Positions 23,444 through 55,758 of a stretch of DNA of 64,000 nucleotides are shown in pieces. Made by a program: the position numbers and the translations under genes. Source of the DNA: Methanobrevibacter sp. Lineage in GTDB: Archaea; Methanobacteriota; Methanobacteria; Methanobacteriales; Methanobacteriaceae. Positions within the stretch are counted from its first letter, which is position 1, and each line of letters begins with the position of its first letter. The notes under the pieces were generated by a model, which saw only the letters and a list, made by a program, of their open reading frames with translations, did not search any database and was not told where the DNA came from. The stretch is taken from the NCBI GenBank assembly GCA_024689425.1, contig JAILDN010000033.1, positions 21,194-85,193 of the forward strand, read 5' to 3'.

Positions 23444-23716
23444 TTAAATACTCTTTTCAAGTGTAATTTGAATAATAGAAACATTAGTCTTTTCACCATT
23501 ATAGTTTTCAACTTCTTCGGTAGATATATGAATATCAGCAACTTCTGCATCTTGTACAAAACTGTTTCTAACAATTTCGGCAGTATCAACAGCACGACTA
23601 ATAGCTCTTCCTCTAGCTCTTAAAATAACGTGATCGTTATCATTGAATTGTGTTACAACTGCCAATACATAGTTCATGACCGGTTTGCTACCAATTAAAA
23701 CTGTGTTTTCTTCCAT
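23444..23716 (-). CDS. albA: DNA/RNA-binding protein Alba
   Basis: 90-aa [41 protein letters not shown]. Confidence 0.95.
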
Positions 23717-28829: not shown

Positions 28830-28842
28830 TTTACACTTGAAA
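28830..28842 (+). promoter_or_regulatory. mini-ORB-like 13-mer TTTACACTTGAAA
   Basis: Exact match, intergenic, 60 bp upstream of the 28902 CDS. Confidence 0.55.
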
Positions 28843-36915: not shown

Positions 36916-37843
36916 AATTTTTAAATTAAAAAACATCATTTCAATTAAAGATTTTGAAAGATTAGACATTGACTATATATTGGAAGAAGCATCAAAATTA
37001 GAGAATATTGCTCAATCAAAAGAAGTTTCAGAAGAATTAAAAGGAAAAATATTAGGATTAATGTTTTTTGAACCGTCTACAAGGACAAAATTGTCATTTG
37101 AAACTTCCATGAAACGTTTAAGCGGACAATGCATCGGCTTTGAAAACACCGGTTCTTCAAGTGTATCTAAAGGTGAAAGCATTGCCGATACCGCGAAAAT
37201 GTTTGAAGGATACAGTGATGCTTTGGTAATTAGACATGAATTGGAAGGAGTATCAAAATTCATTTCCGATATAGTGGATATCCCTGTCATTAATGCAGGC
37301 GACGGATCAAGTCAACACCCAACCCAAACACTACTCGATTTATACACAATTAAAAAAGAACTCGGCTCAATCGACAACTTAAAAATAGCATTGATAGGAG
37401 ATTTGAAATTTGGACGTACAGTACACTCCCTAGCCAATGCATTAGGATTATACGAAAATGTAGAACTATACTTTGTTGCACCGAATGAACTGAAAATGCC
37501 GCAAGAGGTTCTTCATGATTTGGATGAAATGAACATGTCTTATACAGAAGTTTCAAAAATCGAAGAGGTTATTGACAAAGTAAACGTCTTATATGTTACC
37601 AGAATTCAAAAAGAGCGTTTTGCTGACATTGAAGACTATCTACAAATAAAAGGTGCTTATAAAATAAATAAAAAAATGTTAGAAGGTAAGGATTTAATTG
37701 TAATGCATCCTTTACCTAGAATCGATGAAATCGATGGTGATGTTGATAATACGAAATACAACAAGTATTTCACCCAAGCAGCAAATGCTGTACCTGTGAG
37801 AATGGCAATATTGAAAACATTAATAAAAAACAACCCTAAATAG
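36908..37843 (+). CDS. pyrB: aspartate carbamoyltransferase catalytic subunit, TTG start
   Basis: [43 protein letters not shown]. Confidence 0.95.
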
Positions 37844-38990
37844 ATGAAAATAAACTTGATTCAAGTAAATCCTCATCACATTGCAATTTAATAATGTTGG
37901 TTCTGCCCTTTCCACGTCCACGTGAAATAGTATTTGTTGAAATAATACCAAGCATTTCAAGCTCGTTGATAAAGTCAAAGATTCTTCTGTAAGTTACGGC
38001 ATCTTTTTTAGAAACTTCAGTATATGCTTCATATAATTTTCCAGAAGTAATTTCTTCTTTTTCATTTGTTAAGTTTAAAATAGCTTCAAGTACTCTTTGC
38101 TGTTGTGTAGGAAGTGTTTTTACAACATCAACAAATTTATCATGTTCTATTCTATCTTTAGCCATTCTTACATGTTCACTTTTAATAGTTTCAGTGCCTT
38201 CTTCTTCAGCTATAAATCCAGAAGTTTTTAACAAGTCAAGAGCAAACCTTGCATCCCCTTCCTCTTTAGCAGCCATTGCGGAACACAATGGGATAACATC
38301 CTTTTCAACAACGTTTTCCTTGAAAGCCAATTTAGCCCTATCATTTAAAATATCCGTTAACTGATCTGCACCATAAGGAGGGAAAACAATTTCCTTATCA
38401 TTCAAACTACTGGTAACCCTAGACTTAATTAATCCTTTAAAGTCAAGGAAATTACTAATTGATAAAATTGAAACATTGTCCGTTCTAGTTAATGTGTATA
38501 AAATTCCGTCCCCATCTTTATTAAGCAATATATCAATTTCGTCTAAAATAACAATTAAAATGAGTTTTTTTCCAAAAGCATTAGTTCTGAAAATATCACG
38601 GAATGTATTGACAACTTCCGCTTTGGTCCATCCCCTATGAGGAACATCACGGCCAAGTTTTTGACATAATTGAGCTAGAACCTGATATTCTGTTGTATAA
38701 TCGGTACATCTAATATATTCAATTTTAATAAAGACGTCCTGGTCTGCTGAATACTCTAAAAGTTGTGAACGAGCAAATTTTGCAGCCGCAGTTTTTCCTG
38801 TTCCAGTTTTACCGTAAATTGTAATGTTTGATGGTGTAACATCATTTAATGCATCAACCCAATATCTTGCAATTTGTGTAACTTGATCCTCCCTGTGTAA
38901 TAACTTATCTGGTAAAAACCTATGATCTAGTGGTTTTTTATCCTTAAATATTAAATTTTCTTTCTGAATATTTTCGAAAATATTGCCCAT
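37836..38990 (-). CDS. cdc6: Orc1/Cdc6 origin-recognition AAA+ protein
   Basis: [18 protein letters not shown] Walker [13 protein letters not shown] Walker B, C-terminal winged helix. Confidence 0.94.
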
Positions 38991-39267
38991 TTTCTCACCT
39001 ATAAAAATTATAAAAAATAGAAAAATAACATAAGTATGATTTCCAGTGTTAATATATAAACAAGCTCTTAAATAAAGTTTTTCATTGTAAAATTGATATG
39101 ATATTAAAATATTACCTAAAATTGAAAAAATAAAAACTGATAAAAATCAATTAAAATTAAAATAATAAACTAAAAAGTAATATTATTATAAACATGAAAT
39201 GAATATTTATTTATTTTAAATTTAAAAGAATATAATCAAATTAAAAAAATAAATATGTGGAGTAGCA

Positions 39268-39300
39268 TTTCAAATAAAAGGGTAGTATTTCAAATGTAAA
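39268..39300 (-). promoter_or_regulatory. two degenerate mini-ORB-like repeats immediately 3' of the giant surface gene
   Basis: TTTCAAATAAAAG (39268-39280) and TTTCAAATGTAAA (39288-39300, one mismatch from TTTCAAGTGTAAA). Confidence 0.4.
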
Positions 39301-39316
39301 AATTATATGATAATCA

Positions 39317-42300
39317 TCATTTGATGACTATCGTATTTGCCTCATTTAAAAATGAATATGTCGTGGTAATTATATATTTTCCAGACTGAAGATTAATGTT
39401 CAAATAGGCAATACCATTGGACTGCGTTGTTCTAATATAAAAGACACCATTAATGTTAAATGTTACCTCAACACCACTCAACGGATTGCCGTTATTATTA
39501 TCTAAAATTAATGCGCCAAACTTAGAACCATCCCTATAATTCATTACAAGATTGGATGTTTTAATAGTGCTTAAAACCTTAACGTTGTTTGATACTCTAT
39601 ATCCGCCGTATTCTGCTGTAATTATATAATCATCCGGTTGTAAATTAATGTTTAATGAAGCGACACCGTTTTCATTAGAAGTCCTATAATAGAAAACACC
39701 ATTAATGTTAAAGGATACGACAACGCCACTCAATGGATTACCTTGGTCATCTAAAACCTTTACGGAATATTTAGAAGTGTTTCTATAATATTTCACTAAA
39801 TCCTTATTTTCAACCAATTTAGGAAGAACTGTAATAAGGACACTTGCCATTTCATCAGTTTCCGGATTTATAACCGTTAAAATATATTTATCAGGATTCA
39901 AATTAATATTTAAACGAACAAATCCTGATGAATTTGTAGTACGATAGTATAATACCCCATTAATATTCATCGCAACGCTTTTTTCTATAACCGGTTTTCC
40001 TTCAAAATCAACAATTTTGGCAACAAATTGAGAAGCATTTTTATAATATTTAACTAAACTATTTGCAATAACTGTGGATTTAATTGTTACTGTAACGTTT
40101 TTAAATGATGACGCATACTTATTATCCCCATTAAATCTGATTAAAATAGAATAAGTATTTGAATTTAAATTTAAAGGCATTGAAGATGATCCATCAATTT
40201 TTGTAGTTCGAGTATATGTAACACCGTTTAAAGTAATAAATACCGTTTTATTTGATAGCGGATTATTCTTAAAATCTGTTAAGACGAAATAAAGTCTCGT
40301 TCCATCATGATAATACATGTCAACATCGTTTGAATTTATTGAAGTAGAGACACGATCAATAACGAATGAATCCTTTATAATCAAATTATTATAATTGGTC
40401 TTACTGAATTTAGCTTCAATAAGATAATTTCCAAAATCTAAATTATCCAAATCCAATATTGCTTCGCCATTAACCATTTTTAAATAATATAACTTTGAAT
40501 TTACACTGACATTTAGGGTAGTGTCTATTTTATCCACGGATTTAAAGATTAAAGAAACATTATTTATGTTTTTAACAATATTTAAACTCAAATCAATATT
40601 TTTAGGATTAACATTAAATTTGGTGGTATTCATGATTAAATTATAATTGTTATTTCCATTAAATACAATGATTGATGTGTATTTTGATGTATTAAGTAAA
40701 ACTGGTAACTTTTGAACAGAATTGGATTTAACAGTATAATCAACACCATTAATATTCAAAACACATTCCTCATTCAACTTATCACCATTCAAACCAACCA
40801 AAGAAACACTAACAACCAAATCATCACCATAAACAGCATCTTCGATATTCAAAGACAAATTAGGTGTAATCTTATTTACTTTGAAAGTATCCTTGGCATT
40901 TACGGAATTATAATTATTATTTCCATTAAAGTAAACAAATGCAGTATAAGTAGAAGCATTAAGTAAAACAGGAAGCTTATTTAAAGAATTAGATTTAATA
41001 TTATAATTTACGTTATTAATACTTAAAACGATATTTTCATTTAATAATTTATTGTTTGAATCCATTAAAGTAGTATTAACAACCAAATATTCTCCAAAAT
41101 TAATATTAGAAATATTTAAAGATAATGATGGTGTAGCTTTATTAACGCGAACTTTTAAATTAGAAGTAGCACCATTATAATTATTAGAACCTTTATAAAT
41201 TAATTTAAAATCATGACTTCCCACATCAAAAATAGAATCCAAAACAGTTTCGGAATTTGAATCAATTATTTGAGATTTAGATCCGAAAACCAGGGTTAAT
41301 TTATCATTAATGAGTGAATTGGATGAATCGATAAGGGAATTTTTAATTACAAAATATTGTCCGTACATAATATCAGAAATATCTAAAGTCAAATCAACGT
41401 TTGCCTTGGAAACAGTGAAATTACAGGAAACATTACTGGAAATATGATTGATAGTCTCTTCTAAATAAAGATAAGCTGTGTAATTAGAAGCACTTAGCTT
41501 ATTGTGAATTACAAAAGGAACATTAGGTCCAATATCATATGTTCCAACACCCTTAATTGACAATTTAAGGTTATCATTACAATTTAAAAAGGTATTGACG
41601 ATTAAATCTTCACCATAAACTATACTAGGAATATTCATGGATAAAGCAGGGATGACTTTATTAACTGTGAATGTAGTTTTATTATCACACGGATTGTAAT
41701 TTGTACTTCCCTTAAAGTAAACGAAAGCAGTGTAAGTATAAGCATTTAATGGAATAGATAAGTTATTAATACGATTAGATTTAACAGGATAATCAACACC
41801 ATTAATATTCAAAACACAATCATAATTTAATAATTTACCGTCTAAATCAACCAAGGAAACATTTACAAGTAAATTTTCACCATAAACAATATCCTTAATA
41901 TTCAAAGATACTCTGGAATCGGCTTTACTAACAGTTAAACTTGAATTAGAAACCGTGTATCTATGTGTTTCATCACCTTCAAAAATTAGATAAGCAATAT
42001 AGTTACCTGCATCAATTAAATCTGTTATAGTTTGAATTGAATTTGATGTTATGCTATAGGTTTTATTTCCAATTTTCAAAAGTAACTCAGCATTGATAAT
42101 ATCTCCATCAGTAGTTTTTAATGTGTTTTCAACAATTAATTTGCCACCATAACTAATATTTGATATATTGAATGATAAATTCGTATCATGTTGAATAAAA
42201 ACTAATTTAGAAGAATTTGAAGAGGAATAAAACATATCTCCAATAAATATTGCTGTGATATTATGAATACCAAATCCTAAATCTAAATTTGATAAAACAA

Positions 42301-44665
42301 CTTTACCATTAGTTAAATTAAAGTTTTGGGTACTACCATCAATTTTTAAAATTATAGAACCATTAATATAATTATTACACTGATCTAAAACACTTACATT
42401 TAAATTAAGGGTTTTATTATCATTTAATGAATAATCCAATAAAATATTTGTTGGATATGGAATAATTGCGAAAGCCTTAATACAGGCCACTGAAGAAGAA
42501 TAAGAGTGTCCTCTGCTTTCTAACACTAAAGTATAATTATATAAATCAAACCATTCATCACCATCATAACTAACGAATGAAACATTAGGATAATAATGGG
42601 TTCTTGTAGCATAAACTTTTTCAGAAATAGGAACCCAAGCTTCAGTAGACGTTTCAATTTTTAAAAGTATTTCAAAAGTATCTCCTTTTGATAGCGGAAT
42701 AAATGAATCTAAATTAAACGTGAAATAACCTGTTGGAGCCGTTCCATTTTGAATTGCTTTTAGTTCATTATTCACTCGAATTTCTGCTGTCCAATTACTG
42801 TCTGTATAAAAATATGTTGAAAATGCAGATAATAATTGATCAGATGATGCATTAAAGGAATTTTTATACCACATCGTGCTTTGATTAGTCAATAAGTAAT
42901 CAGTTAGTCCAATAATATCATATTGGTAAATCTTATTATATTTGACAGTTTCATTGAAAATTATTACCCATGTTGCTTGAGAATCTCCTACCTTAGCAAA
43001 AGTCTTATCATAATAGGAAACATAATAATATCCGCCATATCCCCAATTACTTCCCCAACTATTTTTACAAATCCAAGCACCGTCATCTGGAGGGGATTCA
43101 GGTTGATAGGGATTTATAAAATTGCTTCTTGAGTAATTATCATCCCATCCGACAATACAAACAGCATGATCTGGAGATATTTCACTAGAATAATATTGAT
43201 TATCAGAACTGGAATAAGTTAGAGTATAAACACCACCATAGTCTAAAATGGCTTTCTTAATAGCATCATTGTCTGTGTAATTTGAACGATATAAATAAGC
43301 AATATTTTGAACGTGGACTATACTGTCAATTAAAGGAGAAAGGTAAGAATCGATAACATAAGCATCATCACTTTCCAATACAGGCCCGAGCCAACTGGTT
43401 AAATAACCAATAGACATTTCATTATTTCCACCTGTATTGGTTTGAACACCCCAACCATAATCAGAAAATATTGCCATTAAATTTTTCATGTTTTCTTCAG
43501 AGAAATCATAAGATATTCCTGTTGCTTTTAAAATACTAGATTCTAGGGCCGCTATTGCTGCAAAAGCCCAACAATTACCATTTGTTCCTTGATCACGAAT
43601 AGGGGTAACATATCCATAATCTCTTAAGTCATATTTAGAAGGTATGGTGCCATTATAAGAGGAATTGTAAAATATTTGAGTATAAACATTGCTTTCAAAG
43701 TTAATATCATATCTTGATGTGCTATACAGTTCATTATTTATGTAATTATTATTTGAAAAAGTTTCATTGTTTAAAACACTATAGACAGCTGACCCTAAAT
43801 ATCTAGCAATGTTTGATGTGAAATTACAATTATACATCTTAAATATTACATCAGGAGTGATATAATCACAGAATAATGCTCCACCATAATTTGCTGAGTT
43901 GTTTTCAAATTCTGAATTTCCAATAGTCAACGGATAATATATCTTATAAAGAAATCCACCATAATAAATTGCAGTATTATTAAAAGCTTTAACCTTGTCA
44001 ATTGACATGTTAGAACCAATAGAACAAATTGCACCGCCTATGCTAGCGTTATTATTGATAAAAACAGAATTGTATAAATAAACTTTATCGGAATATGAAA
44101 ATATGGCTCCTCCCTGACGTGCATTATTGTCAATGAAACGGGAATTGCTAATGTTTAAAGTACCTGAATTGGAATAAATAGAACCATAAGAGTTTCCGGA
44201 TACATTAGTAAAAATAACATTATTAGCAGATAAATAACCAGTACTAGAAATACTGGCTTTATTCAATGTCAAATTAAATAAAGATAAATTACCAGAAACA
44301 GTAAACAGTTTTCCAGAATAAGTTATAATAGTATTTTGAGCACTTTGGCCAATAATTACATTAGTAGATGAAATCATTTTAGATGAATCAATTGAATACT
44401 GTCCATCTGCTAAATGCAAAGTTGATCCAGAAGTTATTCTACTAGACCATAAATACTTATATGGACTAGATTGACTACCATTACCATCCGTTTCAGCAGA
44501 TGAATTGAAATAAATATGATTTGAATCCGTAATACCATTATTAACATTATTAGAAGATAATTGAGGTTCAGCTGAAGTAGCATTATCACTAGCAAATGCC
44601 GTTGGAATTATTAAGAAAAATAAAATCAATAACAATAAAACTTTATATTTTCTCAATTGAATCAC
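39317..44665 (-). CDS. giant secreted adhesin-like protein with papain-like (C1) cysteine protease domain and Ig-like repeats
   Basis: Signal peptide; beta-helix repeats (GGAIFS..., GGAICS...); protease motifs NCWAFAAIAALESS, DHAVCIVGWDDN and WICKNSWGSNWGYGGYYYVSYYD; many Big-type repeats; C-terminal KYYRNTSKYSVKVLDDQGNPLSG...NINGVFYYRTS repeats. Confidence 0.9.
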   Translation of the reverse strand: MIQLRKYKVLLLLILFFLIIPTAFASDNATSAEPQLSSNNVNNGITDSNHIYFNSSAETDGNGSQSSPYKYLWSSRITSGSTLHLADGQYSIDSSKMISSTNVIIGQSAQNTIITYSGKLFTVSGNLSLFNLTLNKASISSTGYLSANNVIFTNVSGNSYGSIYSNSGTLNISNSRFIDNNARQGGAIFSYSDKVYLYNSVFINNNASIGGAICSIGSNMSIDKVKAFNNTAIYYGGFLYKIYYPLTIGNSEFENNSANYGGALFCDYITPDVIFKMYNCNFTSNIARYLGSAVYSVLNNETFSNNNYINNELYSTSRYDINFESNVYTQIFYNSSYNGTIPSKYDLRDYGYVTPIRDQGTNGNCWAFAAIAALESSILKATGISYDFSEENMKNLMAIFSDYGWGVQTNTGGNNEMSIGYLTSWLGPVLESDDAYVIDSYLSPLIDSIVHVQNIAYLYRSNYTDNDAIKKAILDYGGVYTLTYSSSDNQYYSSEISPDHAVCIVGWDDNYSRSNFINPYQPESPPDDGAWICKNSWGSNWGYGGYYYVSYYDKTFAKVGDSQATWVIIFNETVKYNKIYQYDIIGLTDYLLTNQSTMWYKNSFNASSDQLLSAFSTYFYTDSNWTAEIRVNNELKAIQNGTAPTGYFTFNLDSFIPLSKGDTFEILLKIETSTEAWVPISEKVYATRTHYYPNVSFVSYDGDEWFDLYNYTLVLESRGHSYSSSVACIKAFAIIPYPTNILLDYSLNDNKTLNLNVSVLDQCNNYINGSIILKIDGSTQNFNLTNGKVVLSNLDLGFGIHNITAIFIGDMFYSSSNSSKLVFIQHDTNLSFNISNISYGGKLIVENTLKTTDGDIINAELLLKIGNKTYSITSNSIQTITDLIDAGNYIAYLIFEGDETHRYTVSNSSLTVSKADSRVSLNIKDIVYGENLLVNVSLVDLDGKLLNYDCVLNINGVDYPVKSNRINNLSIPLNAYTYTAFVYFKGSTNYNPCDNKTTFTVNKVIPALSMNIPSIVYGEDLIVNTFLNCNDNLKLSIKGVGTYDIGPNVPFVIHNKLSASNYTAYLYLEETINHISSNVSCNFTVSKANVDLTLDISDIMYGQYFVIKNSLIDSSNSLINDKLTLVFGSKSQIIDSNSETVLDSIFDVGSHDFKLIYKGSNNYNGATSNLKVRVNKATPSLSLNISNINFGEYLVVNTTLMDSNNKLLNENIVLSINNVNYNIKSNSLNKLPVLLNASTYTAFVYFNGNNNYNSVNAKDTFKVNKITPNLSLNIEDAVYGDDLVVSVSLVGLNGDKLNEECVLNINGVDYTVKSNSVQKLPVLLNTSKYTSIIVFNGNNNYNLIMNTTKFNVNPKNIDLSLNIVKNINNVSLIFKSVDKIDTTLNVSVNSKLYYLKMVNGEAILDLDNLDFGNYLIEAKFSKTNYNNLIIKDSFVIDRVSTSINSNDVDMYYHDGTRLYFVLTDFKNNPLSNKTVFITLNGVTYTRTTKIDGSSSMPLNLNSNTYSILIRFNGDNKYASSFKNVTVTIKSTVIANSLVKYYKNASQFVAKIVDFEGKPVIEKSVAMNINGVLYYRTTNSSGFVRLNINLNPDKYILTVINPETDEMASVLITVLPKLVENKDLVKYYRNTSKYSVKVLDDQGNPLSGVVVSFNINGVFYYRTSNENGVASLNINLQPDDYIITAEYGGYRVSNNVKVLSTIKTSNLVMNYRDGSKFGALILDNNNGNPLSGVEVTFNINGVFYIRTTQSNGIAYLNINLQSGKYIITTTYSFLNEANTIVIK

Positions 44666-44743
44666 CTAATTGTTATTATATTTAATATATTTTTTATTAA
44701 ATATATATTTTATATACAGAATAAGTAGAGAGTGAGGGAAGCA

Positions 44744-44980
44744 TTTCAAGTGTAAGTGATATTTTCCAGCCGGCGAAAATCAGGACATATGTTTCAAGTG
44801 TAAAATTAAAAATTTTTTTATGAAATATGGATTAAAATCATTATAAATAAAAAATACGTTGCTAAATCAATTTTCAGGACAAAAAAATTAAGGTCATTTT
44901 CAAGTGTTTTTTCACTTGAAATATACCTCTTCGTTCAAAATATACCTTCGTTTACGTTTCACTTGAAACGCACCTCTGTC
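44744..44980. other. oriC: candidate chromosomal replication origin (mini-ORB cluster plus AT-rich tract)
   Basis: TTTCAAGTGTAA 44744-44755; TTTCAAGTGTAAA 44792-44804; inverted pair TTTCAAGTG-TTTTTT-CACTTGAAA at about 44898-44921; TTTCACTTGAAACGCACCTCT near 44957; AT-rich stretch about 44801-44880; cdc6 nearby. Confidence 0.72.
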
Positions 44981-44984
44981 TCTC

Positions 44985-45476
44985 TTAGATGAACATTGAA
45001 TTTTCATTTGATGGTTCTTGAATACTTTCATTAATAGTGCCGAAAGTCTTTTCAATTAACCATACACATTGAATCTTAGCTTTAAAGACCCTTTTTAATG
45101 AATCATATAAGTAATTTTTAGTTAATCCATCATCAAAAATCTGATAGGTAATAACATATTGCTGCAATAGATTAGTAGATTGATCTACTGCAAGCTGGCA
45201 GTCCACTAAAAATCTGTTAACTTCCATATTCAATTTCAAGAGAAATTTACTTTTTTCTTTTTGATCGCTATTGTTCATCAATTCCAAATGTTGAGGAGAC
45301 ACCTGTGTAGCACAGGCAATAATAATGAAATCTTTACCTTTTGGCCTGACAACATCCATTATATTGTCATTAGGAAATTCTATAATAAAATGAAAGTCAG
45401 AATTCTCATCAACTTTCTTTTCTCTGAAGATTCCTTCATCAACTATCCAGTTTTTTATAACATCTTCTTCAATCAT
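44985..45476 (-). CDS. DUF2299-like protein
   Basis: MIEEDVIKNWIVDEGIFREKKVDENSDFHFIIEFP...; family assignment from memory. Confidence 0.6.
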   Translation of the reverse strand: MIEEDVIKNWIVDEGIFREKKVDENSDFHFIIEFPNDNIMDVVRPKGKDFIIIACATQVSPQHLELMNNSDQKEKSKFLLKLNMEVNRFLVDCQLAVDQSTNLLQQYVITYQIFDDGLTKNYLYDSLKRVFKAKIQCVWLIEKTFGTINESIQEPSNENSMFI

Positions 45477-45540
45477 GATTATCACATTTAATTTAATAAA
45501 TAATAAAATATTTATTTTTTTATAATTAATATTAATTATT

Positions 45541-46515: not shown

Positions 46516-47543
46516 AAATTGCTATTATTTCAGTTTCTAAAAAAGGTTATGATTTATCAATGAAAATTAAGGAATTGCTTGATGAGGATTCCACAATAAT
46601 AAGATGTGACATTTATCATAAAGACGTTAAAAATAATTTTAATTTATTATTTAGTGAATATGATGCAATCATAGCAATTATGGCTTCAGGAATACTAATA
46701 AGAAGCATTTCAGATTTAATTGTATCAAAAACATCTGATCCAGCTATTTTAAATATTGACGATAATGGAGAATTTGTCATCAGCATGCTTTCAGGTCATC
46801 TTGGCGGAGCAAATAAATTAACAAATAAGGTTGCAGATCTAATTAATGCAACTCCAGTAATTACAACATCAACAGATGTTAATAATAAATTAGGAATTGA
46901 TGTTTTAGCAAATGACTTATATTTAACTATTGATAATACAAAAGAGATTTTACATTTTAATAAATCAATTTTAGATGGTAAAGAGATTTCATTTACAGTA
47001 AATAGCGATGAAAATTATGATTATTTATTTGAGTATTTAAATAATAATACACTTGAAATTGATGTTTCAATTTATTTTTCAAGCAGAATAAAAAATGGTG
47101 AAATTGAAGCTGAATGTGATGGTCATGTAATAATTTTAAAGCCGCTTGATGTAATTTTTGGAATTGGATGCAGACGCGGTAAAAGCTCAGAAGAGATAAA
47201 TGAAGCAGTAGATAAAGTATTGGCAGAGTTAAATATGGATAAATCCAGAATAAATGCCCTTTCATCAGCTGAAATAAAAAAAGATGAAGAAGGCATTTTA
47301 CAGTTGTCAAAAGAATTGGACATCCCTGTTTATTTTGTTGATTTAGATAAATTAAAATTGTTTAAATCAAATGATATTCAGGAATCAGAGTTTGTAATGT
47401 CAAAATTCGGAATTCCAGGAGTCTGTGAACCATCCGCATTAATAACAGCAGGTTACGACTCTCAATTGATTTATAAAAAAACGGCTTTTGATGGTATAAC
47501 TATTTGTGTGGCGTTGGAAAATAAAAAAAATAAGTTAAATTAG
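46512..47543 (+). CDS. cbiG: cobalt-precorrin-5A hydrolase
   Basis: MLSGHLGGANKLTNKVADLINATPVITTSTDVN, GIGCRRGKSSEEI, GIPGVCEPSAL; overlaps the cbiB stop. Confidence 0.93.
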   Translation: MKIAIISVSKKGYDLSMKIKELLDEDSTIIRCDIYHKDVKNNFNLLFSEYDAIIAIMASGILIRSISDLIVSKTSDPAILNIDDNGEFVISMLSGHLGGANKLTNKVADLINATPVITTSTDVNNKLGIDVLANDLYLTIDNTKEILHFNKSILDGKEISFTVNSDENYDYLFEYLNNNTLEIDVSIYFSSRIKNGEIEAECDGHVIILKPLDVIFGIGCRRGKSSEEINEAVDKVLAELNMDKSRINALSSAEIKKDEEGILQLSKELDIPVYFVDLDKLKLFKSNDIQESEFVMSKFGIPGVCEPSALITAGYDSQLIYKKTAFDGITICVALENKKNKLN

Positions 47544-48681: not shown

Positions 48682-50286
48682 TTAATCTAAGAATTTGAAT
48701 AATTTATATTTTCCTTTATAGAGAACAGGAACCTGTGCAGGTGTTGGTTCGATATTTTTAATTTTTTGGTACTCTGTTTGAGTCTGGAAGGTTCCAGAGT
48801 TAATCATATGAATTCCTTTATATTTATCATACGCATTAATGTGAATATGTCCAGTATGGAAAATATCTGGAATATTTTCAATGACTAAATAATCTTCTAA
48901 TTCAGAAGCAAGAGGTGTTCTATCACCATAAATTGGAGCTAAATGTCTTTTTCTTAGAAGTTCTTTCATCATCTCTTCATTATGTTCATAAGATAGACCT
49001 TTAATAGCCATTGGCAATTCATTGAAACTTTCACCATGATAAATTAAAACATTAATTCCCTCGAGAGATATTACAGCAGGATTACTGACAAATTCCACAT
49101 TGTCCAGTTCATACAATGATTTTGCATACTCTTCTGGAACCGCTGGCTGTGGTTCTGCCAATCTTGAAGCATCGTGGTTTCCAGGAGCAATGATGATTTT
49201 TATATCGCTTCTAACGTTTCCTAAAAATCTTGCGGCTTCATCATATTGAAGACGTATATCTTTAATCGAAAGCTCTTTGTCTTGATTTGGATAGACTCCA
49301 ATTCCATCAACGATATCTCCTGCAATAATTAGATATTTAACGCTTTCTGCAACTTTTCTTTGTTCTTCATTTCCAAAATCACAGTTAATCCAGTCGATGA
49401 ATTTTTTAAAAGCATCTTCTAGAAACGTTAAGCTTCCAATATGAACGTCAGATAAGAAAACAACGCTGAAATCCATTTCTTTTTCGGATGTTCTTACAAT
49501 ATCTGGGAAAAGCAGCTGATTAGCTATTATGAAATCATTGTCTTTGTTAACGACAACTCCAACAACTTCATCCCTAACAAGTTTTTCAGCTTCTGCAAAC
49601 AATTCTTCGTTTTTATTTGAAAATAAGATTGAAATAGACCCAGTATCATCTTCAAATTCTATGTATTTATGTCCGTTTTTAGTGGATCTTATTTCTTTAA
49701 CCATCACTATTAAATTAATGGTAGTCTGACCGTCTTCTATGTCAGCTATTTTTGTAGTAATTTTAAGTTCAGGCCTTTGTCTTAATATTTTTGATAGTTT
49801 TTCATATCTTGATTGAAAATAAGTTATTAAATCGCTGATTTCTCCACTTGTATAGGACTTATTGGAACTATCTTGGATGATTTTAAAGTCATATGTAACA
49901 TTTGTTTTATTTAAATTTCTTTTAAATTTTATTTTAGCATCAACAACTTTTTCAGAATTATCTTCTTTTTTAACTTCAGTTGTTGTATCAGCATTATTTT
50001 TAGATTCTTTTTCATTTGATTTATTTATTTGCTCATTAGGAATTGATTCACTACGTTCTTCCTTAGTTTCTTTTTTTGGGGCTTCTTTTTTATTTCCTAA
50101 AATTTCATCAATTGTATCACCACTAACAGAAATTAAATCACTTGATTTAAAATCATTGCCTTTTAACTTAACAATTAAGTTAGAAGCCATGTTAATTGGA
50201 TTTTTTGAGCCCATTATTTTATCATAGGCCTCTGGTGATAAATTAATCCCTTTTTTTGCAAATTTTAGTAGAATCTTATTTGTCAT
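48682..50286 (-). CDS. DNA polymerase II (family D) small subunit
   Basis: [42 protein letters not shown] phosphoesterase motifs plus OB region. Confidence 0.93.
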
Positions 50287-52686: not shown

Positions 52687-53949
52687 GTGATATGCATGAA
52701 AAAGCAGAAGAAGATTCGCAGTCCACTATCTTCATTTCAGAACTTCTTTTCTGTACATGATTACATTATCAAAGAAAGCTTTATAGCTCTTTTAATTTGT
52801 GCATTAGGAGATTTATTTGCTGGAATTGTTTTAGGAAATATGACATTTTTCTTAAAAGCATTCCCTGGATTACTTGTTATTATTCCTGGTGCAATTGGCA
52901 TGAGAGGAAATATTTTTGGATCTTTTGCATCCAGATTATCAACAAATTTACACATTGGTATTGTATCTCCTAAATTTGAGTTATCAGAACAATTAAACAA
53001 TAATATAATTTCTTCTTTTGTATTGACACTAGTCTTATCATTGTTTTTAGCTATTATTGCGAAGATTTTTTGTATTATTTTTAATTTTGAATCAATATCC
53101 ATAATTGATTTTATTTTAATCAGTATCATTGCCGGAGTTGTTTCAAATATAATAATGCTTCCGCTAACAATGTTAATTTCATTCAGGAGTTTTAAACGTG
53201 GATGGGACCCGGATAATGTGACTACACCAATTATTGCAGCCGTTGGTGATTTATTTACCCTACCTGCTATAATTTTTTCAGTAATTGTTTTATCTCAATT
53301 AAATAATTTCATATTAATTAAAAACATTATCTTTGTTTTAATTATTGTTCTTGTTATAATTGGATTTATTTATGCTATTAAATATTCTGGCGAATCTAAA
53401 AAGATTATTACCCAATCAACACCAGTATTGCTTGTTTGTTCTCTTTTAGGAGTTTCCGCTGGTGGAATATTAAACAGTTCTATTGAAACATTACTTACCA
53501 ATCCTAGTTTACTCACGTTATTACCATTATTCTCAGGTGAAAGCGGCAGTATTATCAGTGTTTTAAGTGCTAGATTATCATCAGGTCTTCACTATGGTTT
53601 AATCGAACCATTGAAAAAGCCAACGAAAAATACAATACATAATTTCTTAATTTGTTATGTTTTAGCTGTTGTGATGTTTCCTTTAATTGGATTCATCGCT
53701 GAAGATTCAACCAATATTTTAGGTTCAGCAGGTGTTGGATTTATAAATATAATTTTGATTTCATTAATCTCAGGGCTTATTTTAGTCTCTATAATGATTT
53801 TTGCAGTTTATTACATTTCTATCACTGCGTATAATAGAGATATTGACCCGGATAATGTTGTCATTCCAATTTCCACAAGTATGACGGATGCTATTTCAAG
53901 TTTGATTTTAGTAAGCATTTCATTTTTAGTTCTTGGGGCATTAATTTAG
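52687..53949 (+). CDS. SLC41/MgtE-type divalent cation transporter
   Basis: Two internal repeats with RGNIFGSFASRLSTNLHIG / SGSIISVLSARLSSGLHYG and WDPDNVTTPIIAAVGDL / IDPDNVVIPISTSMTDA. Confidence 0.86.
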   Translation: MICMKKQKKIRSPLSSFQNFFSVHDYIIKESFIALLICALGDLFAGIVLGNMTFFLKAFPGLLVIIPGAIGMRGNIFGSFASRLSTNLHIGIVSPKFELSEQLNNNIISSFVLTLVLSLFLAIIAKIFCIIFNFESISIIDFILISIIAGVVSNIIMLPLTMLISFRSFKRGWDPDNVTTPIIAAVGDLFTLPAIIFSVIVLSQLNNFILIKNIIFVLIIVLVIIGFIYAIKYSGESKKIITQSTPVLLVCSLLGVSAGGILNSSIETLLTNPSLLTLLPLFSGESGSIISVLSARLSSGLHYGLIEPLKKPTKNTIHNFLICYVLAVVMFPLIGFIAEDSTNILGSAGVGFINIILISLISGLILVSIMIFAVYYISITAYNRDIDPDNVVIPISTSMTDAISSLILVSISFLVLGALI

Positions 53950-54824
53950 CTCCAGGCTCTTATTATAAAATTACAAGGTTGCATTATAAAGTAATCATAT
54001 TTTAATTTACTTTTATCAAAGTCTTTGGGGACTGCTACTAGCACGGCCTTTACATTTTTTTTATTTAAGTGAATAAATATTATAGAACTTGTTTCCTCTC
54101 CCTCAAAGAGCGATTTAAGTTTATTGTTTAGGTAAATTTTATTGTTAGTGATTCTTTCATTATTGTATTCTTTATAATGTGTTGTATCAATTGAGTACTC
54201 CACATTATTTTTTTCGCTGTCATCAAGCAATATATAATAATCGAAGTCTTTTAAATTCTTTTTAAATAATTTTAAGTAATTACAGCTATAATCTTTTTTA
54301 TTGTGATTATGATTGCACTTTCCTTCACTGGAAAAATCGTCAACAACATATTTTTTAAAAAATTCACATTTCACAAGTCTGTTAACGCTGTAGACATTTC
54401 CACTTTCACCGCCCGAACCAATCTTTACACTTGAAAGAGAAGTCTTTAGTGGAATTAATTCCATTGAGGATTTAAATTTATTGTCAAATAGTTTTTTTGT
54501 TACTAGTCTTTCGTAATCTCTACCAAGTTCCAGTAATTTAAAGTATGAAACACTGTTTGGAATAACATTATCATCGTCTGTTATTATCGCTAAGCCAATT
54601 CTTTTAGATTTAAAGTCATCCCAGTTTTTAGGGATACCAGGATTATTTATCAGATAATCACACGTTTCTGTAATTGTTTTTTCTATATTATTGCTTTCTA
54701 CACTCTTAGAAATTTTTTCATTTGTGAGTTCAGCAGTAATGGCAATGACACCTAAAATTAGTAGGATTATTATTGCCACCACAACTATTTCAAGTGTAAA
54801 ATTTCCTTGGCTATCCAGTTTCAT
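53946..54824 (-). CDS. pilin/pseudopilin-like secreted protein
   Basis: DSQGNFTLEIVVVAIIILLILGVIAITAELTNE resembles an archaeal class III (Q-x-S/T-x-E) signal peptide. Confidence 0.6.
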   Translation of the reverse strand: MKLDSQGNFTLEIVVVAIIILLILGVIAITAELTNEKISKSVESNNIEKTITETCDYLINNPGIPKNWDDFKSKRIGLAIITDDDNVIPNSVSYFKLLELGRDYERLVTKKLFDNKFKSSMELIPLKTSLSSVKIGSGGESGNVYSVNRLVKCEFFKKYVVDDFSSEGKCNHNHNKKDYSCNYLKLFKKNLKDFDYYILLDDSEKNNVEYSIDTTHYKEYNNERITNNKIYLNNKLKSLFEGEETSSIIFIHLNKKNVKAVLVAVPKDFDKSKLKYDYFIMQPCNFIIRAWS

Positions 54825-55758
54825 TATAACTCAACCCATATTTTTTGGCATGTGATTCGTCCAAAATCAAGCTGTTGATGTCCCATTTATTCAATTTTTT
54901 GCCATTGTACCTATCATGAAAAACCACATGATCAGAACAGGAGACACTTTCGTTTGTCAGGGGAGTGTGTGTTTGGATAAACACTTCTAATCCATAGTGA
55001 GGACAGGTACCCTTTCCCTCTAATCTGCATAAATAACAGCTGCCGTCAGCGCTTTCATGGAAATATCCATTTTTTAAACATTCTTTCAATGTGTTTCCAT
55101 CTCCATGATGGATATAAGGGTCATATGGACATTTTTTTATTATCATAGGCGATGTCGCAAGAATATACGACTCAAATGAATCAACATTATGCTTTAATAG
55201 GTACTGTGAGAGAGATTCGAAATAGTAGATGGTCTTATCATCGTGGTTAATGTTACTATAGGCAGTTAACATCGCATAAGGCAGTGGATCATTTAATCCT
55301 TCAATAGATGAATTGCTTTCTATAATTCCATCATATTGTTCAGAATCTTTATCAACTTTTATTCTTACTTTGAAAAGTACTTTCCACGGACTATCAGTAC
55401 TTTCTACAGATATTACTTCTGAACGGATATCAACCCCATATTTCTCTTTATAATCCTTATTTGTTTTCTTTAACTTCTCATTTAGGATTTTTTTAACTTC
55501 TTTTCTACTGTCATGAATGATATGCCCATGATATAATTTTTCTGTTTCTTCAGCCAGTGATTCCTTTCCTATCTGTTCTAAATTTTTTTTGTAGTCGTTT
55601 ATTATATATTTAAAATTATCACTTTCAATAGAATCAATATTTTCGTTTTCAAGGAAATAAATGCTGTTTACAACAAATATAACGATTAAAATAAGGGATA
55701 CAAGTAAAATAACTGTTGTTCCTGTAATTAAATTTCCGTTATTGTCAATTGAGTACAT
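54811..55758 (-). CDS. pilin/pseudopilin-like secreted protein, Cys-rich ectodomain
   Basis: DNNGNLITGTTVILLVSLILIVIFVVNS N-terminal hydrophobic helix; overlaps the next gene by 14 bp. Confidence 0.5.
   Translation of the reverse strand: MYSIDNNGNLITGTTVILLVSLILIVIFVVNSIYFLENENIDSIESDNFKYIINDYKKNLEQIGKESLAEETEKLYHGHIIHDSRKEVKKILNEKLKKTNKDYKEKYGVDIRSEVISVESTDSPWKVLFKVRIKVDKDSEQYDGIIESNSSIEGLNDPLPYAMLTAYSNINHDDKTIYYFESLSQYLLKHNVDSFESYILATSPMIIKKCPYDPYIHHGDGNTLKECLKNGYFHESADGSCYLCRLEGKGTCPHYGLEVFIQTHTPLTNESVSCSDHVVFHDRYNGKKLNKWDINSLILDESHAKKYGLSYNETG

Follow-up and report, generated by a model that had tools for sequence, protein, structure and literature searches.

Where does chromosome replication begin in this uncultured gut methanogen? 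The DNA analysed here (the window, a stretch of 64 kb) is part of contig C92 in a draft assembly of 113 contigs and 1.75 Mb, and the closest named relatives of the genome are Methanobrevibacter MAGs, M. millerae among them. A preliminary description had nominated the intergenic region at 44744-44980 as a candidate chromosomal origin, a proposal that is supported by GC skew, by conservation across the genus, by the position upstream of cdc6-1 in relatives, and by a published motif and the oriC assigned in M. ruminantium. We consider it very likely that this locus is the single main chromosomal oriC of this Methanobrevibacter, at which Cdc6 would bind and replication would fire.

The region lies between an adhesin-like gene (start 44665) and a DUF2299 gene (end 44985), both on the minus strand. 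The core [A/T]CACTTGAAA occurs five times within 225 bp of this spacer (44744-44968), at 44744-44753, 44792-44801 and 44898-44907 on the minus strand and at 44912-44921 and 44959-44968 on the plus strand, so that ORBs 1-3 point leftward and ORBs 4-5 rightward, with an AT-rich tract enclosed:

44744-44756, minus strand: ORB 1, CTTACACTTGAAA, which most relatives conserve at about -240 relative to the DUF2299 stop
44792-44804, minus strand: ORB 2, an exact mini-ORB 13-mer, TTTACACTTGAAA, conserved at about -192
44805-44897, no strand: AT-rich tract (83% AT) between ORB 2 and ORB 3, recognized by composition; candidate unwinding element
44898-44907, minus strand: ORB 3, core ACACTTGAAA, left arm of a tight inverted pair, conserved at about -87
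44909-44921, plus strand: ORB 4, TTTTCACTTGAAA, right arm of that pair; the tail after it, ATATACCTCTTCnTTCnnAATATACCTTCG, is nearly invariant
44956-44968, plus strand: ORB 5, GTTTCACTTGAAA, in which the repeat runs on to CACCTCT

The spacing is 48 bp from ORB 1 to ORB 2 and 47 bp from ORB 4 to ORB 5. The repeats previously reported at 44744 and 44792, as an inverted pair around 44898-44921 and near 44957 are all in place, as is the AT-rich stretch at about 44801-44880, which is 84% AT, against 68% for the window. Since the sequence of the AT-rich tract varies between species, its assignment as an unwinding element is a conjecture drawn from location and base composition. The tail ATATACCTCTTCnTTCnnAATATACCTTCG after ORB 4 (44910-44955) is nearly invariant in close relatives and longer than any ORB; it is possibly a further origin element. 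The canonical ORB G-string was not found at the ORBs of this locus, which carry a CCTC/TGTC-type tail instead. This tail resembles the motif published for the Methanobacteriaceae by Ori-Finder 2, TT[TA]CACTTGAAAT[GTA]T[CT][CG]TC (PMC4164010), which the ORBs fit.

Could such repeats have come together by chance? The clustering is far beyond chance: the window holds 10 copies of the core [AT]CACTTGAAA against 0.7 expected, five of them inside 250 bp, and 200 first-order Markov simulations of the window never gave more than one core per 250 bp. The 12-mer TTACACTTGAAA has nine copies in the whole 1.75-Mb assembly, six of which are inside the window. The preliminary description had held that several exact 13-mers in the interval could not be accidental; the improbability of the cluster stands, but only one of the five repeats, at 44792, is exact. 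The window's three remaining exact 13-mers, at 28830, 54424 and 54788, fall outside the interval.

Does the strand bias of the chromosome switch at this site? The assembly is in 113 contigs, and for this reason its own skew curve was replaced by those of two complete relatives, G033 and G029, each sampled 42 times, mostly in 20-kb pieces. Two scores were used: raw GC skew and the skew at codon position 3, balanced over both coding strands. With either score, the best-fit origin falls at 1.26-1.28 Mb in G033, where the homologous cluster is at 1.2704 Mb, and at 30-50 kb in G029, where it is at 41.3 kb (the strand-balanced position-3 fits gave r values of 0.93 and 0.74 in the two genomes). In G033, negative balanced skew persists until 5 kb to the left of the cluster and positive values begin 12 kb to its right; in G029, the sign changes between the samples at -6 kb and +11 kb. 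The skew analysis called for at the outset thus places the switch at the homologous locus and not elsewhere. In the window itself, regional GC skew is noisy without strand balancing; the balanced position-3 skew is -0.099 to the left of the locus and +0.092 to the right.

How widely is this arrangement shared? In the Methanobrevibacter loci that were compared, all chosen for a DUF2299 orthologue, minus-strand cores stand at about -240, -192 and -87 and plus-strand cores at about -71 and -24 relative to the DUF2299 stop, often with another at about -345; at least one exact core is missing in many species, and a few have just two. The 5' flank of the DUF2299 gene never has more than one core per locus. 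In all 54 other genomes measured, the spacer is directly upstream of cdc6-1, and the other genera of the family mostly retain the order cdc6 - ORB spacer - DUF2299 - cbiB together with the extended motif TTACACTTGAAATRYAYSTCT. The oriC of M. ruminantium was likewise assigned immediately upstream of cdc6-1, from GC skew and homology (PMC2812497). The closed genome G014 (C1, 2543538 bp; L053) has its first base 12 bp ahead of cdc6-1, from which it appears that the depositors, too, regarded the spacer as the origin.

The neighbourhood comprises the following genes, together with cbiB and cbiG:

37836-38990, minus strand: orc1/cdc6-1, the presumed initiator gene (TIGR02928, E=6.7e-119; Pfam Cdc6_C and Cdc6_lid)
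39317-44665, minus strand: adhesin-like surface protein of 1782 aa (papain-family C1, lectin-like, Ig-like repeats), a gene that only this genome has there
44985-45485, minus strand: DUF2299 gene, a constant origin neighbour in most of the family (PF10061, E=8.5e-37)
48682-50286, minus strand: DNA polymerase D small subunit, DP1 (NF003120, 748.8 bits)

DP1 is a typical origin-proximal replication gene. A cdc6 gene close to DP1 is the classical neighbourhood of archaeal origins (PMC2643942). For DUF2299, which stands beside the origin in most of the Methanobacteriaceae genomes inspected, a replication-related role is possible.

Why, then, is cdc6 so far from the cluster? Its start, at 38990, is 5.75 kb away, in keeping with the 5.7 kb first reported. 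This gap exists because a 5.35-kb adhesin-like gene sits in the spacer, an insertion that the preliminary description had missed. The DUF2299-cdc6 spacer has a median length of 651 bp in 55 genomes; it is 450-943 bp in the 54 other genomes of the genus, all with DUF2299 and cdc6 on the same strand, and 5997 bp in this one, the only outlier. The locus is nonetheless orthologous, its adjacency to cdc6-1 having been lost by insertion, since, once the adhesin gene is left out, the spacers of close relatives can be aligned over their full length with the two halves, the one that bears the five ORBs (44666-44984, 319 bp) and the one that lies upstream of cdc6 (38991-39316, 326 bp). On the cdc6 side, the same alignment reveals additional elements:

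39288-39300, minus strand: ORB-like TTTACATTTGAAA in the conserved spacer
39262-39275: a related copy, GTAGCATTTCAAAT, in direct repeat with it
39040-39052, minus strand: conserved TTAACACTGGAAA element upstream of cdc6

In the aligned spacers, the first two form a conserved ORB-like pair, ATTTCAAATA..GTATTTCAAATGTAAAA, at 39264-39300, and the ORB-like element at about 39040 reads ATTTCCAGTGTTAATAT. Around the junction, some 50 bp are unrecognizable, a conserved TTATCATGATTTATCA among them. Neither a target-site duplication nor a mobile-element end was seen, in a search for direct repeats within each end region and by eye in the alignment. In the relatives searched, a single genome can hold as many as 18 members of the adhesin family. 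The insertion is seen in one contig of a draft assembly; a chimeric assembly is unlikely, because the ORF is intact and has the two halves of a single spacer on either side.

An insertion of this kind might have inactivated the origin, leaving the genome to use another one or to replicate independently of origins, as is reported in PMC5663688 for Thermococcus kodakarensis. The spacer has after all been split, and the TTATCATGATTTATCA element has gone with the rest of the junction. However, the DUF2299 side retains all five of its ORBs undamaged, and a switch in position-3 skew is still seen at the locus, although the skew would be slow to reflect a recent change. We regard inactivation as very unlikely. 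If the origin still fires at this locus, the split suggests that the half bearing the five ORBs suffices in cis.

On another reading, the cluster would titrate Cdc6 or serve in autoregulation while initiation takes place elsewhere, and there is precedent for this: in Haloarcula hispanica, an ORB-rich region represses oriC2 by titration (PMC3936714). A possible alternative start site is offered by a subclade (G029, G010, G002, G007, G036, G040 and G044) in which head-to-tail ORBs, TTACACTTGAAATGCACCTC, mostly about 53 bp apart, form a second array between an aminotransferase gene and a GerW-like gene, with the Orc1/Cdc6 paralogue cdc6-2 a few kb off in six of the seven loci:

Second array: L045:5714-5822, L046:4794-5035, L047:6834-6949, L048:4947-5116
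Second array, continued: L049:5530-5686, L050:5080-5195, L051:5420-5507

However, the skew switches at the main locus, and no switch was found at the array of G029, 230 kb away; moreover, the array is absent from G014, from G033 and from this genome, which does have cdc6-2. A second origin at such an array was rejected for this genome on these grounds, and that initiation occurs away from the main locus is scarcely credible. Equally little weight can be given to the idea that the repeats are operators of the adhesin gene or of DUF2299 and not an origin. In favour of this idea, the adhesin gene starts right beside the cluster, which lies upstream of it, and the cores are partly dyad-symmetric; against it, relatives with no adhesin gene there keep the cluster at the same distances, the cluster is downstream and not upstream of DUF2299, and the skew switches at it.

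An oriC at this locus would probably work as follows. Orc1/Cdc6-1, encoded beside the ancestral site, would bind the five oriented ORBs and melt the AT-rich tract at 44805-44897; MCM would then be loaded, and two forks would depart in opposite directions. The ancestral origin would comprise the entire spacer between cdc6 and DUF2299, about 650 bp, which in this genome the 5.35-kb adhesin-like gene has entered and cut in two; if the origin still fires here, its function is most likely carried by the five-ORB half. Sites of this type are familiar as the cdc6-1-linked oriC of the Methanobacteriaceae; what goes further is the insertion, peculiar to this genome, and the solitary ORBs around the origin. 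The place where an uncultured gut methanogen probably starts chromosome replication is thereby located and given an anatomy that is conserved across the genus, and the insertion becomes a natural experiment that parts the ORB cluster from cdc6 and suggests what a minimal origin might be.

The most novel part of the picture, drawn from comparative evidence, is a set of satellite ORBs that lie singly outside the spacer:

23455-23467, minus strand: a further solitary ORB, at a position different from the -25 kb site of relatives
28830-28842, plus strand: intergenic ORB with gatA on one side and a cobyrinate-synthase-like gene on the other; judged by the left neighbour, the site is orthologous in 9/9 genomes
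47046-47058, plus strand: ORB AATACACTTGAAA inside cbiG, at +2.1 kb, with orthology and synonymous constraint
54424-54436, plus strand: ORB antisense inside ORF 53946-54824, at +9.4 kb, with orthology and synonymous constraint
54788-54800, minus strand: ORB near the 5' end of ORF 53946-54824, common to close relatives only

Identity of the ORB at 23455 with the relatives' -25 kb site was rejected, as the neighbours differ. Nearly all of the nine species compared have orthologous solitary ORBs about -11, +2.1 and +9.6 kb from the origin, the one in cbiG being in plus orientation in 9/9 genomes and the antisense one present in the orthologue of ORF 53946-54824 in 8/9. Cores are also concentrated around the origin: within 35 kb of it and outside the spacer, G033 has nine against 0.8 expected from the rest of its genome, and the corresponding observed and expected numbers are 6 and 0.6 for G011, 6 and 0.9 for G014, and 5 and 1.1 for G029.

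What keeps these sites in place? In cbiG (20 sequences, 993 windows), the ORB is the best conserved 10-nt stretch, and its codons Thr ACA and Leu CTT are uniform wherever the residue is kept, CTT making up just 20% of Leu codons. In ORF 53946-54824 (786 windows), the ORB is again the best conserved stretch; its codons Ser TCA, Ser AGT and Val GTA do not vary across 14 sequences. An unbiased scan then took in 37 genes, in which three-codon windows uniform at every codon were ranked by degeneracy. Of the 3826 windows whose residues are conserved, the ORB of ORF 53946-54824 came out on top and that of cbiG tied for third, in a ranking where shared ancestry inflates codon uniformity, but alike for every window. 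We infer that selection acts on the DNA itself to keep the satellites, the simplest reading being that they are Orc1/Cdc6 sites, and they are probably extra Cdc6 sites of the origin's own system. They may serve for titration, in the manner of H. hispanica oriC2D, or for organization of the origin region. We lean, if slightly, toward an origin that is a domain of some 20-30 kb, with solitary ORBs whose positions and orientations are fixed and orthologous and which DNA-level selection would hold against synonymous drift as long-range Cdc6 sites; candidate roles for these would be an initiator reservoir, timing, or a parS-like organizing of the origin. In that case the origin of the window would also show that a half-spacer with five ORBs can dispense with physical linkage to cdc6. 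The constrained solitary ORBs within coding sequence suggest that selection on archaeal initiator sites extends well beyond the origin. ORF 53946-54824, which carries two of the satellites, and the adjacent ORF 54811-55758 encode proteins with hydrophobic N-termini that are conserved near the origin in the family; neither protein has a match in Pfam or NCBIfam.

How does this origin compare with known systems? The closest is the oriC of M. ruminantium M1 (PMC2812497), from the same genus and at the same place in the spacer upstream of cdc6-1. There, the site adjoins cdc6-1 directly, whereas here a 5.35-kb gene stands between the ORB cluster and cdc6. In Methanothermobacter thermautotrophicus, the mini-ORBs are reportedly bound cooperatively by Cdc6-1, in work by Capaldi and Berger in 2004 and by Majernik and Chong in 2008, and we take the core found here to be the same mini-ORB core. 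That species has a single origin, as is very likely here too, but it has been studied biochemically, while the present one is known from sequence. The cooperative binding is cited in PMC4010727 and PMC5333045, and the core also agrees with the Ori-Finder 2 motif of the Methanobacteriaceae (PMC4164010). H. hispanica oriC2, with oriC2D downstream (PMC3936714), has extra initiator-binding elements outside the origin core, as the satellites here may also be; oriC2D, however, is a dense array of 11 ORBs beside the origin, and the satellites here are solitary, 2-16 kb off and in some cases within genes. ORBs inside coding sequence near an origin have a precedent in a different gene of another system; here, on the other hand, their synonymous constraint and orthology have been measured over many species.
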